DNA from: Halobellus sp. LT62
GTDB lineage: Archaea; Halobacteriota; Halobacteria; Halobacteriales; Haloferacaceae
DNA length: 64,000 nucleotides
Direction of reading: 5' to 3'
Assembly: GCF_037031285.1 (NCBI RefSeq)
Contig: NZ_JAYEZO010000001.1
Span: 806,001 to 870,000, forward strand
Part shown: positions 5,257 through 50,251 of the stretch, piece by piece
Position numbering within the stretch: the first letter of the stretch is position 1
Layout of the letters: the number at the start of each line of letters is the position of its first letter
Notes under the pieces: model-generated
Told to the model about the DNA's origin: nothing
What the model saw: only the letters and a program-made list of their open reading frames with translations
The model's database searches: none
Program-made: the position numbers and the translations under genes

Positions 5257-6537
5257 TCACTCCATTCGCTCGATCACGAACGCGGTCGCCGGGGGGACGG
5301 CGCGAGCGTAGAGTTCGGCCCACGCGAGGTCACCCTGCGCGCGGGCCGCGTCGACGTAGCCGTCCTCGATGTATTCGGGGAGGTACTCGAACGTCTCGAG
5401 CGCGGGGCGGGCGAGTCGAGCCGCCAATCGCACGTCGTCGCTCTCGTCGATGGCGTCGATCGCGTCTCTGGCCCGGTCGGCGGTTTCCCGCACAGACTCG
5501 ACCGACACCGGGTCCTGATAGCCGTCGCCGCGGATCCCTTCGATCGCCGCCCGGAGCGCCTCGACGGCGGCCAGCGCCTGTCCGGCCTCGATCACGGCGG
5601 TCGCGTAGTCGCCGTCGTCCCGGCGCTCTTCGTACTCGTCGGCCGAGGCGCTGACCTGCCCGCTGGCCCGCCGAAAGAGCGCTGTGGCCGGCGTTCCGTC
5701 GAGGTCGGCCTCGAACGGCGGCTCGTAGACGTCGAGGAAGTCGCGGACGGTCGAGCGGGCGCGGGAGACCGCCAGTCCGAGGCGGTCCGAGGCGTCGATC
5801 AGCGCCGTCCACCGCGAGGGCGGGTCGTCGCGCTCGGTCAGATAGACCGACCGTACGCGTGCGGCGTCCGCGAGCGTCGCGCGAGCGAGTTCGACGCGTC
5901 CGACGGCGTCACCGGCGCGGAAGGGATGGGCGACCGGGTCGTCAGGGTACGCCGGGTTCGGACGCGTTCGACCGCGGCAGTCCGCGAGCAGCGCCTCGAT
6001 CGGTTCGTGCGCGAGCACCGCCTCCAGCGGCGACGACGCGCGGTACTCGTGGTCGGCCGCGAGCGACCCGAACGCGTCGCGTACGCTCCGGCGCTGTGTC
6101 TCGACCTCTTCCGCGTCGTCCTCGCCGGTCGCCGCGCGGTACGCGCCGAGGACGGTCGCGGCCTCGTGTCGCCGCCCCCGCCACGTTTCGAGTCTGTCGG
6201 TCGGCCACGGGTCGTCCGCCGCCTCGTCGAGTCGCTCGGCGGTACGTTCGCGGTCGGTTCGGAGCTCCTCGGCGATCGCGCCGTTGGGCACCGACGGGTC
6301 GGTCGGCACACTCGCGAGCAACGTCTCGGCGCGCTCGCGGTGAGAATCCGCGAGCGTCGGCGGGACCGCGACGGGGAACGGCGAATCGGGCCACTCGATC
6401 GATCCGGCGGCGTCGCGCGGGAGCTCCACGTACTCGCGCTCGTCGTCGCCCTCGACGAACGGCAGGCCCGAACAGCCGGCCAGTCCGGCGACGCCGACGC
6501 TCGCGAGCCCGGCGAGGAACCGGCGACGGGAGGTCAC
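5257..6537 (-). CDS. Tat-exported lipoprotein, mostly helical, function unknown
   Basis: GTG start at 6537 gives MTSRRRFLAGLASVGVAGLAGC: a twin-arginine signal followed by an LAGC lipobox, so the mature 400-aa protein is anchored outside the membrane at its N-terminal Cys. The rest is Arg/Asp/Glu/Ala-rich and predicted largely alpha-helical, with no recognised domain. Its start overlaps the stop of the upstream lipoprotein gene by four bases (GTGA), so the two are translationally coupled and probably work together at the cell surface. No transporter genes are adjacent. Confidence 0.75.
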   Translation of the reverse strand: MTSRRRFLAGLASVGVAGLAGCSGLPFVEGDDEREYVELPRDAAGSIEWPDSPFPVAVPPTLADSHRERAETLLASVPTDPSVPNGAIAEELRTDRERTAERLDEAADDPWPTDRLETWRGRRHEAATVLGAYRAATGEDDAEEVETQRRSVRDAFGSLAADHEYRASSPLEAVLAHEPIEALLADCRGRTRPNPAYPDDPVAHPFRAGDAVGRVELARATLADAARVRSVYLTERDDPPSRWTALIDASDRLGLAVSRARSTVRDFLDVYEPPFEADLDGTPATALFRRASGQVSASADEYEERRDDGDYATAVIEAGQALAAVEALRAAIEGIRGDGYQDPVSVESVRETADRARDAIDAIDESDDVRLAARLARPALETFEYLPEYIEDGYVDAARAQGDLAWAELYARAVPPATAFVIERME

Positions 6538-7190
6538 TCTCCGGCACCTCCCTCGGCGGGCGTCACCGTCGGATCGAAGGGGTCGCCGCGCCGCGTCGGC
6601 CCGCAGGAGCTCGACATCCCGCTCCCGCTTCCGGACGATTCCTCGGCCGCCACGGGGAGTCGGATCGCGAACCCGGCTGTGTGGGTCTCGTCGGCCCCGC
6701 ACTCGACGTCGGCGGGGCGGGTGGTCCGACAGAAGTCCGCGTGCGGGTGGAGGTCGTCGGACTCCAACTCGTCCCACTCTACGCTCGCCGACCGGAGGCG
6801 GAGCTCGTAGCAGGCCTCCACGGGCATCGCGAAGAGGTAGATCGACGCCGACTCGAAGTCGGTCTCGGCGGCGAACCCGCGGAGGCGTTCGGCCTCGGGG
6901 ACGTCGTTGAAGGTGAGCGCTTCGAGGTCCTCGTCGCTGACGACGACGCTGCGGGCGGACCGGGCGTACCGGCTCCGCTCGTCGTCGGTCACCGTCGGGA
7001 GCTCCTCGCGCCGGCTGAACAGCACGTCTCCGTTCTCGTTGCGCACGTGTCGCGCCTCGTAGTCGTCGAGCGTTTCGTCGTCTCTGGGAGGGTCGATGGT
7101 CGGGCGGTCGCTTTCGCCGGAACAGCCGGCCAGTGCGGCGACCCCCGACGCGGCCGCGAGGAGGGCTCGGCGGCGGGTCAGATCGGGCAT
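6534..7190 (-). CDS. Tat-exported lipoprotein with Cys/Ser-rich tail
   Basis: Protein of 218 aa starting MPDLTRRRALLAAASGVAALAGC: a Tat signal with lipobox. The mature part contains two Cys pairs (EACYEL/ADFCRTT and VECGAD/SSSCGPT) that could form disulphides, and a Ser/Gly linker near the end. It is the first gene of a two-gene operon with the helical lipoprotein (GTGA overlap). The family is not recognised. Extracytoplasmic placement is well supported; the role is not. Confidence 0.72.
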   Translation of the reverse strand: MPDLTRRRALLAAASGVAALAGCSGESDRPTIDPPRDDETLDDYEARHVRNENGDVLFSRREELPTVTDDERSRYARSARSVVVSDEDLEALTFNDVPEAERLRGFAAETDFESASIYLFAMPVEACYELRLRSASVEWDELESDDLHPHADFCRTTRPADVECGADETHTAGFAIRLPVAAEESSGSGSGMSSSCGPTRRGDPFDPTVTPAEGGAGE

Positions 7191-7244
7191 CCTCTCGGCT
7201 TTCGTGGAGGGGTGAAAAACGTCTTGTGGAGCGATTGTCGGTGA

Positions 7245-7443
7245 TGGGCGCGGCGTCGGGTCGCCGTCGAGGAGGCGGGCGGCTTCACGGGCTTACGCGA
7301 GACCGCGACGAAGACGAACTCGCTGGTGGATCGACTGAAGGCGATAACGCTGCCCGATCCCGACGACGTCGCCGACGATCTCGCGCGCTACGTGCAGGGA
7401 TGAGGAAATCGATATCGTCGAGAACGCGGTGGGCGAGGAGTGA
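7245..7443 (+). pseudogene. Decayed gene fragment
   Basis: Between two stop codons lies a protein-like stretch without a start codon: AGGFTGLRETATKTNSLVD, then RLKAITLPDPDDVADDLARYVQ. It ends in TGA at 7401-7403. Shifting one base after YVQ continues smoothly as DEEIDIVENAVGEE to TGA at 7441-7443. Codon use is typical of local genes. I infer the 3' part of a lost gene with a frameshift. The family is not recognised. The rest of the 7191-7564 gap holds only the promoter of the next gene (a TTAAG-type element near 7530-7537). Confidence 0.4.
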
Positions 7444-7564
7444 AGCGGGAGACGCCAGCACCTTGCGCCGGGGTGTCAGCGGCGACTGTAACCAAATATG
7501 GCTCGATATTTCCAAGTAATTAATAACTGTAGTTAAGACCCTGCCGCGCGTTCCAGTGTACACT

Positions 7565-14388: not shown

Positions 14389-15465
14389 ATGTCTCAGCAG
14401 GATGAACGCCCCCGAGTCGATAAAGCCGACCTGGAGTGGTGTCACAAGTCGGTGCAAGGGGTCTCTCGCACCTTCGCGCTCACGGTGGACGTGCTCGACG
14501 AACCGATGTCCTCGTACATCTGTCTCGGATACCTCGTCTGCCGGATCGCGGACACCGTCGAAGACGCCTCGCACATCCCTCCCGAAGAACAGGCCGACCT
14601 CCTCCGAACCTACGACACCGTCCTCGCACCCGACGACGAGACGGACGCCGCGGAGTTCGTTTCCTCGGTCGAACCGTACCTCCCCGACGAGGAGGCGATG
14701 ACCGAAGACTGGGCGGTCGTTCGCGACTCCCCCAGAGTGCTCCGAACGTTCGGGAGTCTCCCCGAGGACGTCCAGCAAGCCATCGTTCCGCCGGCCAGAG
14801 AGCTCGTGCAGGGGATGGCCGAGTTCGTCGAGCGCTACGAGGACGACGGCGGCCTCCGGATCCAGACTCGAGGAGAGTTAGAAGAGTACTGCTACTACGC
14901 CGCCGGAACGGTCGGTAATCTCATCACGAACCTCGTGACGCGACACGATGTCGCCGCCGACCGCCGCCGTCGGCTGTACGACACCGCCGAGGAGTTCGGA
15001 CTGCTCCTTCAGCTCGTCAACATCTCGAAGGACGTCTACGACGACTACACCGCCGAGGACAACGTCTATCTCCCAGCCGAGTGGCTGCGGGACGCGGGCG
15101 TCCCGCAGGACGCGGTCATCGACGAGGAGCACGAAGACGAGGCCGCTTCGGTCGTCCGCCGCACCGCCGAATTCGCCGGGTCGTTCCTCGACGACGCCCA
15201 GACGTACTTGGAGACGGTACCGCTTCGGGACGGCAACACGCTCGAAGCGTGGGCGATTCCGTTCCTGCTCGCGGTCGGGACGCTCCGGGAACTGCTTTCG
15301 CGGCCGGAGGACGCCCTTTCTTCGACCGGCGTGAAGATCTCCCGCCAAGAGGTGTTCGCGGTCGTCTCCGAGATGAGCGCCAGCGGCAACCGCGAGTCTC
15401 TCGACGAACTGCGGCGCGCCATCGCGACGGGGCCGTATCACGCGTCGCTGTCGAACGCCGACTGA
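14389..15465 (+). CDS. Squalene/phytoene synthase family protein, probably squalene synthase
   Basis: 358 aa trans-isoprenyl head-to-head synthase. The two Asp-rich motifs that bind the diphosphates are present: DTVED (in CRIADTVEDAS) and DVYDD (in LVNISKDVYDDY), together with SRTFALT and YYAAGTVGNLITNL. It joins two C15 (to squalene) or two C20 (to phytoene) diphosphates. The YCYYAAGTVG block and overall length favour squalene synthase over CrtB. Squalene and derivatives are abundant neutral lipids of haloarchaea; it may also feed the carotenoid step suggested by the UbiA-cyclase fusion elsewhere in the window. Leaderless start supported by the TATA at 14351-14360. Confidence 0.82.
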   Translation: MSQQDERPRVDKADLEWCHKSVQGVSRTFALTVDVLDEPMSSYICLGYLVCRIADTVEDASHIPPEEQADLLRTYDTVLAPDDETDAAEFVSSVEPYLPDEEAMTEDWAVVRDSPRVLRTFGSLPEDVQQAIVPPARELVQGMAEFVERYEDDGGLRIQTRGELEEYCYYAAGTVGNLITNLVTRHDVAADRRRRLYDTAEEFGLLLQLVNISKDVYDDYTAEDNVYLPAEWLRDAGVPQDAVIDEEHEDEAASVVRRTAEFAGSFLDDAQTYLETVPLRDGNTLEAWAIPFLLAVGTLRELLSRPEDALSSTGVKISRQEVFAVVSEMSASGNRESLDELRRAIATGPYHASLSNAD

Positions 15466-48333: not shown

Positions 48334-49494
48334 TCACTCGTCCAGCCCCGCCAACGTCTCGTGGACGCCCACGACGAGGGCGGGGACGACGATCATAAAC
48401 AGGTGTTCTTCGATCGGGATCCCGGCGAGTTCGACGCCGGTCCGTAACGGAATCGCGAACACGCCGACCGTCAGCGTGTACCAGTCCCAGACGAACGCGA
48501 TCGGATACAGCGCGAGCACGGTTCGCGCCGCGCGCCACACCGCGTCGGCTCGCAGGAGCAGCGCGAGGGCGACGGCACCGAATACGACCTCCGTCGCGAG
48601 GTACGTGTACGGACCGAGCATACCGATATCGGGGAGCGGAACGCCCATCAGCGGCCGGAACCAGACGGCAACGACGAGAATCGCGAGGAACACGTACGAG
48701 CCCCGAACGAGGAGCATCGTCGCCACTGACGGGCCGGCACGCGCCGCGACGGCGGCGACGAGCCCGAACGCGACCGCCGCGAGCGGAGCCGTCGGGGGAA
48801 ATATTCCGTCCACAGTACATACGAGGACGAGCGTCAACCCGGCGTACAGCAGTGCGTACGCCAGCCGCCGGCCGCGAGAGATTCCGAGGGCGACCGCGAC
48901 CGTCCGCTTTCCGATGGATCGATCGTACGCGTAGTCGGTCGCGTCGTCGACGATCTTCACGCCCGCGAGGGTGACGAGAAACACGAGACCGAACGCGAGC
49001 GCCTCGGCGGCGAGCGCTCCGGTCTGGGCGTGCTGTCCGCCAACGACCGCGAGCGCGATACCGAACGGATACCCCAGCGTCGTGGTGACGGGATTGGTGT
49101 CTGACTGGGGGGCGTGGAAGAACCCGAGCGCCCACATCGGGGCCGTGAGAAGGGCCGTCGCGGGACCGCTAACGAACGCGAGCGCAGCTGTCACGGCGGC
49201 GAAACAGAGCGTCGAACCGGCGAGCGCCCACCGACAGCCCGCTTCCGTCAGCGGATGATCGTCGTCCTCGCCGCGGCGGTGGAAGTCGACGTAGCCGTCT
49301 TTCAGGTGCGCGGTGTAGACAGCGAAGAAGGTCGCGGCGACGTGAAGTCCGAGCGGACCGGGGGCGAACCGCTCCGCGAGGATCGCGCCGAACAGGCTCG
49401 CGGCGACTGGCGGGAGCATAAAGACCGGGTGGACCTGCGACGCCAGCGCTGCGGCTGCGGCCCGGGAACCTGTGCCGTGGCGCGAGAATGCCAT
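48334..49494 (-). CDS. UbiA prenyltransferase fused to a lycopene-cyclase domain
   Basis: 386 aa, about ten helices. Residues 1-290: UbiA fold with the two Asp-rich motifs, KDGYVDFHRRGED at 65-77 and DDATDYAYD at 183-191, which bind Mg-isoprenyl diphosphate. Residues 295-386: a single CrtYc/CrtYd-type lycopene cyclase domain, marked by WDWY (336-339) and PIEEHLF (360-366), the signature of membrane lycopene beta-cyclases. Fusions of a lycopene elongase with a C50 cyclase exist in actinobacteria (LbtBC of Dietzia). One copy only, whereas haloarchaeal CrtY has two. Predicted to prenylate lycopene and perhaps cyclise the ends; substrate unproven. No other carotenoid gene is adjacent. Start MAFSRHGTG at 49494. 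Confidence 0.8.
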   Translation of the reverse strand: MAFSRHGTGSRAAAAALASQVHPVFMLPPVAASLFGAILAERFAPGPLGLHVAATFFAVYTAHLKDGYVDFHRRGEDDDHPLTEAGCRWALAGSTLCFAAVTAALAFVSGPATALLTAPMWALGFFHAPQSDTNPVTTTLGYPFGIALAVVGGQHAQTGALAAEALAFGLVFLVTLAGVKIVDDATDYAYDRSIGKRTVAVALGISRGRRLAYALLYAGLTLVLVCTVDGIFPPTAPLAAVAFGLVAAVAARAGPSVATMLLVRGSYVFLAILVVAVWFRPLMGVPLPDIGMLGPYTYLATEVVFGAVALALLLRADAVWRAARTVLALYPIAFVWDWYTLTVGVFAIPLRTGVELAGIPIEEHLFMIVVPALVVGVHETLAGLDE

Positions 49495-49642: not shown

Positions 49643-50251
49643 GTGCCCCCCGACGTCCCGCCGCCGACGCTCGACGTCCCGGACGGGTGGCGACTCGTTT
49701 CGGAGGAACTCACCACGCCGTTCGACGTCCGCGTCGTGACCGTCATCGCGAACACGCGGATCTACGAGGACGTCGGCCTCCGCGAGCGACTCGACGACGT
49801 GACCGACAGCGACGCGACGTGGCGCTTCGTCTTCGCGAGTCGGCTCCGAATCCGCCCCGCGAAGCCGCCCTCCGGTGCGCTCTCGCGGTTGGTCACCGAC
49901 CGTGCCAATTCGCGGTTCGTCGACGTCCTCGGAGAACGGGGCTTCGAGTCGATCGAACGCGCCGACGCGCACCGACTCGACCTCGGCGCTGGCCAGACTG
50001 CCGCCGGTGACGCCGTGAGCGGAGACGCCAGCGAGGGCAGTTCGAGGACGGCGGCGACGCGCTACCGCGCCCGCGTTCGCCTCGACGATCGATCGATTCC
50101 CGTCGAGGCGTACTTCGCGGCGTGGCCCGCCGGCGACGGCGAGTTCCTCCTCGGCGGCGGCGCGTATCCCCTCTCGCTGCCGGAGTCGACGTCGTTCGAC
50201 CCGGAAGACGCCCGCGAGGAGCTCTTTTCGATGCTGCGCTCGATTCGGTAG
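49643..50251 (+). CDS. Haloarchaeal protein of unknown function (202 aa)
   Basis: GTG at 49643 gives MPPDVPPPTLDVPDGWRLVSEELTTPFDVRVVTVIANTRIYED. The middle (RFVFASRLRIRPAKPPS) and C-terminal (ARVRLDDRSIPVEAYFAAWPAGDGEFLLGGGAYP) parts are beta-rich. No Tat signal or membrane helix. It resembles lipoprotein-type DUF6517 domains but without the anchor. Soluble, function unknown. Confidence 0.65.
   Translation: MPPDVPPPTLDVPDGWRLVSEELTTPFDVRVVTVIANTRIYEDVGLRERLDDVTDSDATWRFVFASRLRIRPAKPPSGALSRLVTDRANSRFVDVLGERGFESIERADAHRLDLGAGQTAAGDAVSGDASEGSSRTAATRYRARVRLDDRSIPVEAYFAAWPAGDGEFLLGGGAYPLSLPESTSFDPEDAREELFSMLRSIR

Follow-up and report, generated by a model that had tools for sequence, protein, structure and literature searches.

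Several actinobacterial systems have been described in which a lycopene elongase is found together with two different cyclase subunits, all encoded by clustered carotenoid genes, namely LbtBC/LbtA, CrtEb with CrtYe/Yf and CrtE2 with CrtYg/Yh (PMC6393565). For instance, LbtB of Dietzia sp. CQ4, which is part of the LbtBC fusion, needs LbtA as the second cyclase subunit (PMC6393565). Here, we describe a protein of the haloarchaeon Halobellus sp. LT62, which is encoded in a 64,000-nucleotide stretch of the genome (the window). Like LbtBC/LbtA and CrtEb with CrtYe/Yf, in which a UbiA-family enzyme is either joined to single domains of the lycopene-cyclase type or encoded alongside them, it combines both kinds of domain. 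However, the source genome encodes no second cyclase subunit, the UbiA half of the fusion falls outside the lycopene-elongase models and the fused gene lies outside any carotenoid gene cluster. The analogy to LbtBC drawn in the original prediction thus holds for the architecture and fails for the second cyclase subunit and for an elongase-type UbiA half. To our knowledge, every relative of the cyclase domain that has been characterised acts on carotenoids, which speaks against a substrate of another kind.

The coordinates of the fused gene and of its parts are given in Table 1. The start codon is backed by homologues with a matching start position, and a longer in-frame reading frame reaching position 49755 has an extension without conservation among homologues. 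As had been claimed, a UbiA domain is fused to one domain of the CrtYc/d type, and both halves score above the curated cut-offs. The N-terminal half reaches 36.5 bits with Pfam UbiA (PF01040; gathering cut-off 34.2) and the C-terminal part 42.5 bits with the lycopene-cyclase profile TIGR03462 (curated cut-off 39.4). The Pfam model Lycopene_cyc gives 22.8 for the fused protein, which is below the cut-off of 27, and 28.6 for a stand-alone homologue from Haladaptatus. The AlphaFold model (mean pLDDT 94.1, pTM 0.77) is almost wholly helical, and the cyclase domain forms three long helices. A sequence search of the PDB gave zero matches. The best fold matches of the model in the PDB were UBIAD1 (8djk, the top match) and archaeal UbiA-type lipid synthases including DGGGP synthases, and the TM-scores of the best three UbiA structure matches, normalised by target, were 0.72-0.75. 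By score, fold and two Asp-rich motifs, the protein belongs to the UbiA prenyltransferase superfamily. The UbiA half is the orthologue of a stand-alone UbiA protein of about 283 amino acids in other haloarchaea. In the alignment, the UbiA part ends with VWFRPL and the cyclase part starts with LPDI after a linker of about four residues, which amounts to a near end-to-end join.

Table 1 Features of the fused gene (positions in the window)
Feature	Position	Strand	Basis or remark
Fused UbiA prenyltransferase / single lycopene-cyclase-domain protein	48334..49494	minus	386 aa; ATG at 49494, stop codon 48334-48336
UbiA half (residues 1-282), a membrane domain predicted to contain multiple helices	48649..49494	minus	Pfam UbiA 35-249; stand-alone orthologues stop there; Foldseek
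First Asp-rich motif region, HLKDGYVDFHRRGEDDD, residues 63-79	49258..49308	minus	variant of NDxxDxxxD
Second Asp-rich motif, DDATDYAYDRSIGKRT, residues 183-198	48901..48948	minus	D183, D184, D187, Y190, D191 and K196 invariant
Junction MGVP, residues 283-286	48637..48648	minus	fused proteins aligned with the C-termini of stand-alone UbiA and the N-termini of stand-alone cyclases
Single lycopene-cyclase-type domain, residues 287-386, CrtYd-like	48337..48636	minus	TIGR03462 296-376; helices 291-315, 319-343, 361-385
WDWY motif, residues 336-339	48478..48489	minus	W336, D337 and Y339 invariant whether fused or stand-alone
PIEEHLF motif, residues 360-366	48397..48417	minus	P360, E362, E363, H364 and F366 invariant in 54 sequences

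Conservation was assessed in an alignment of 73 relatives comprising fused, UbiA-only and cyclase-only proteins, of which 57 sequences cover the first UbiA motif and 54 the cyclase half. The latter number equals that of the members matching TIGR03462 at E<=0.01. The motifs quoted in the original prediction (KDGYVD, DDATDYAYD, WDWY and PIEEHLF) are all present; DDATDYAYD and PIEEHLF fall on invariant residues and the other two nearly so. KDGYVD is a variant form of the first Asp motif, (K)DGYVDxHxRGED, which is near-invariant within the family: H63, D66, G67, D70, R74, E76 and D77 are invariant in the 57 sequences and K65 is conserved at 0.98. DDATDYAYD is of the canonical type. In the cyclase half, PxEEHxF, WDxYTL and GVFxIxxRTG are invariant or near-invariant in the fused and the separate forms, and position 338 is W in 0.75 of the stand-alone cyclase domains. 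Moreover, an alignment with the CrtY halves revealed that the PxEE core is common to the single-domain cyclase half and the CrtY halves.

The fusion recurs at 58-89% identity in more than 50 named haloarchaeal contigs from genomes and MAGs, among them Halobellus, Halorubrum, Haloferax, Halovenus, Halobaculum and Haloplanus. This recurrence rules out a unique, chance or artefactual fusion caused by assembly. In a sample of the Halobacteriota, 35 of 295 genomes gave a match, every one of them in the source organism's own order. Among 392 haloarchaeal genomes, 89 carry the fusion and 219 have its UbiA type as a stand-alone protein, the classes being set by E-value (fused, <1e-125; stand-alone, 1e-60 to 1e-125). 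In nearly all of the latter, the cyclase domain accompanies the stand-alone UbiA as a separate gene: a cyclase-domain protein of about 100-120 amino acids was found in 22 of 24 stand-alone-UbiA genomes tested directly (62-78% identity), both misses being MAGs, and in 27 of 27 genomes of a second sample. The two separate genes are mostly unlinked. In Haladaptatus salinisoli, for instance, UbiA lies at about 0.48 Mb and the cyclase gene at about 2.45 Mb of the same contig. Counting the TIGR03462 domains of each genome, in which CrtY contributes two and a single-domain gene one, allowed a single domain to be inferred from an odd number. An odd count was obtained for 305 of the 308 genomes that have this type of UbiA and for 2 of the 84 that lack it (Fisher p ~1e-78, kinship between genomes being ignored). 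Joint loss of the halves is automatic for fused genes. In genera with unlinked genes, the absence of one gene usually coincides with the absence of the other (genome G018 of genus g26; G220 of g28; G037, G049, G099 and G299 of g37; G058 and G366 of g46).

The gene neighbours of the fusion, the stand-alone UbiA and the separate cyclase revealed no operon or context that would name a pathway. The stand-alone UbiA adjoins genes for an aminotransferase and a YchF GTPase, and the fusion adjoins housekeeping genes; in the window, its neighbours are TFS, DUF5797, DUF5787, a tRNA methyltransferase-like gene and a NAC-like gene. As five fused loci still carry the aminotransferase gene that flanks the stand-alone UbiA, and four of these the YchF gene too, the fusion may have arisen at the ancestral UbiA site. 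In the UbiA tree, only two state changes are needed to account for the fused and stand-alone forms, and a single fusion event is possible. Some loci showed further arrangements. In one MAG (locus L071), the cyclase domain (6022-6690, minus strand) lies head to head with UbiA (6704-7555, plus strand) and has an N-terminal extension that resembles the last UbiA helices; it is perhaps a fission product. The separate single-domain cyclase gene is divergent beside a gene for a CBS-domain protein in 8 of 8 genomes examined from several genera (loci L181-L188, ~7.3-8.4 kb). In Haloferax mediterranei (locus L194, 3111-4664), the gene of a DUF998 membrane protein starts about 19 bases after the stand-alone UbiA gene and might be an operon partner.

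The functional linkage of the two halves is strongly supported. Since they are kept together, fused or separate, in most haloarchaea, the UbiA protein and the single cyclase domain probably work as one enzyme that modifies isoprenoids and has so far been undescribed. More specifically, we tentatively favour, at a little below an even chance, a unit in which a UbiA prenyltransferase of the MenA-like kind is combined with a CrtYd-like module of one domain. This unit would be distinct from both LyeJ and two-domain CrtY, and its substrate would be an isoprenoid different from lycopene.

The original prediction had proposed for the UbiA half a role as lycopene elongase, which our results do not support. 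The haloarchaeal elongase LyeJ (NF009516/PRK12875) is indeed a UbiA-family member and present in the source organism too. However, it is encoded by a separate gene on contig C2, a contig other than that of the fused gene, side by side with the genes for a CrtD/CrtI-type desaturase, CruF and CrtB, and it scores 463 bits with NF009516. The fused protein gave zero matches at E<=10 to NF009516/PRK12875 and to the bacterial models PRK13595 and PRK13105, and a profile comparison of its family with LyeJ yielded just a non-significant match of 38 columns. Among the 73 alignment members, 47-56 weakly match MenA/PRK12884 models and one matches LyeJ; the family's hits to MenA-like and other UbiA models lie well under the respective cut-offs. 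Thus, the known lycopene elongase is probably a different protein from the fused one, which was rejected as the elongase of the source organism. As LyeJ is present in 386 of the 392 haloarchaeal genomes, its presence is useless as a discriminator. The window also contains a gene of the squalene/phytoene synthase family (PF00494, 184 bits; 14455-15345, plus strand) at a distance of about 33 kb from the fused gene, which is distinct from the crtB copy of the cluster on contig C2.

A genetic experiment also touches on the elongase assignment. In Haloferax mediterranei, plasmid pHME505 carries a stand-alone UbiA gene orthologous to the UbiA half (56% identity), and deletion of the lyeJ gene of this species halts the pathway at lycopene, which alone was detected by TLC and spectrum (PMC6282799). 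Provided that the engineered strain retains the plasmid, expresses the orthologue and also has the single cyclase domain, this result argues indirectly against elongation of lycopene by the UbiA orthologue.

These results bear on the possibility that elongation of lycopene, or a reaction on C45/C50 intermediates, by the UbiA half is followed by formation of a cyclic C50 carotenoid by the cyclase domain, in the manner of LbtABC in Dietzia. The enzyme classes equal those of CrtEb with CrtYe/Yf and of LbtBC with LbtA (PMC6393565), lycopene is available in the cell through the CrtB-CrtI/D-LyeJ-CruF cluster, and the cyclase domain belongs to the carotenoid-cyclase family. Yet the UbiA half lies outside the elongase models, nearly all genomes have a separate LyeJ, and the known C50 cyclases use two different domains, of which the source genome has one. 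Likewise, the lyeJ mutant of H. mediterranei stops at lycopene despite its orthologue. Furthermore, no report of a cyclic C50 carotenoid from haloarchaea is known to us, which counts against this possibility as well. The reading as elongase and C50 cyclase is weakened by these findings, and we regard it as unlikely.

The nearest sequence models for the UbiA half are those of MenA-like prenyltransferases, with similarity in the GKRTxAVxLG region, and the top fold match is UBIAD1. However, the first Asp motif is a variant, MenA is separately present in the source genome, and the fused protein remains far below the MenA cut-offs (19.7 bits vs 102 for TIGR00751; 28 bits vs 264 for PRK06080.1-3). 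Moreover, the similarity is confined to the latter half of the UbiA domain, so that the acceptor cannot be deduced from it. In a tree of the UbiA half with LyeJ, MenA and DGGGP synthase, the branches were saturated and gave no interpretable placement. The source genome encodes a second UbiA paralogue (C1:1265560-1266375; locus L091, 1378-2274, minus strand), which is 37% identical to the UbiA half and has no cyclase domain. It adjoins genes for an acyl-CoA synthetase-like protein, an IclR regulator and a transporter, and related copies are found in comparable surroundings on plasmids of Haladaptatus, Halorussus and Haloarcula.

The cyclase half is related to the haloarchaeal two-domain CrtY (two TIGR03462 domains), with which it shares PxEE. 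Its profile matched the second domain of CrtY better than the first, and in a FastTree tree from a short alignment it formed a separate clade beside the C-terminal domains of CrtY (support 0.95 for the grouping and 0.75 for its own clade). By this phylogeny, it is sister to the CrtYd-type second half of haloarchaeal CrtY. Unlike CrtY, it consists of one domain, forms a clade of its own and does not co-occur with Blh. Cyclases of the CrtYcd type that act on lycopene or C50 carotenoids comprise CrtYc and CrtYd, either fused or as a heterodimer. In the source genome, neither a second cyclase domain nor a CrtYc-type partner was found, and a weak second match turned out to be CruF. Therefore, either a homodimer or a role other than cyclisation is needed; another role of the cyclase half had also been considered in the original prediction and may apply.

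The second of these options would be realised if the cyclase-type half were non-catalytic, i.e. a conserved membrane subunit of three helices with a stabilising, orienting or regulatory effect on the UbiA enzyme. There is one domain only, whereas the known cyclases of the family are paired (LbtA/LbtB; PMC6393565), and an obligate structural subunit would give an equal pattern of fusion and co-occurrence. However, the conservation of PxEEHxF, WDxYTL and GVFxIxxRTG exceeds what a scaffold needs, and the PxEE core is common to the CrtY halves, which renders a purely structural role quite improbable.

The search for other carotenoid genes that had been proposed with the original prediction, in addition to the cluster with LyeJ, CruF, CrtD and CrtB, found neither CrtY nor Blh/BCD (PF15461) in the source genome. 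All other sampled members of the genus have CrtY and BCD/Blh, unlike the source genome. That the single domain replaces CrtY to make beta-carotene for retinal would explain the missing CrtY, but is hardly credible and was rejected, because BCD is missing too and follows the two-domain CrtY (241 of 244 among the 392 genomes) rather than the UbiA/single-domain module, and because most fused genomes, with three TIGR03462 domains in 58 of 89, apparently carry both CrtY and the fusion. Across the 392 genomes, the pair has no positive association with CrtY or BCD, the latter being present in 182 of 308 genomes with the UbiA type vs 61 of 84 without it. The UbiA/single-domain pair is independent of the retinal pathway.

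If the two halves form one enzyme acting on a non-lycopene isoprenoid, the UbiA half, with its two Asp-rich motifs and Mg2+, would transfer the prenyl group of a prenyl diphosphate to an acceptor other than lycopene, for which a quinone-like or another lipid nucleus is our best guess. The CrtYd-like half, probably as a homodimer, would then protonate and cyclise (or isomerise) the isoprenoid chain through the PxEE carboxylates in a proton-driven reaction, the product of which is, like the acceptor, a guess. Both halves would act on the same substrate, UbiA first, in coupled reactions; the fusion would hand over the intermediate within the membrane, and the separate proteins would associate. 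A particular form of this mechanism is a two-step enzyme that attaches a prenyl group to a non-carotenoid acceptor and then closes a ring in the attached chain, giving for example a chroman-type or ring-ended quinone, with the lone CrtYd-like domain working as a homodimer. We consider this detailed version doubtful.

About four fifths of the sampled haloarchaea keep UbiA and the single cyclase domain together. In the open-access literature, to which our search was confined, no paper describing the pair was found. The NCBI annotation already contains a "UbiA family prenyltransferase" and a "lycopene cyclase domain-containing protein"; thus, the coupling is new and not the domain names. In view of the findings, neither "lycopene elongase" nor "lycopene cyclase" is a safe annotation for such genes. 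If confirmed, the coupling would point to a membrane isoprenoid still to be discovered in organisms that have been studied intensively, and it would show that a lycopene-cyclase-type fold can work with one domain, possibly on a non-carotenoid. Should two-step prenylation and cyclisation prove true, the lycopene-cyclase fold would operate outside carotenoids, and haloarchaea would contain a lipid that has been undescribed in this group.
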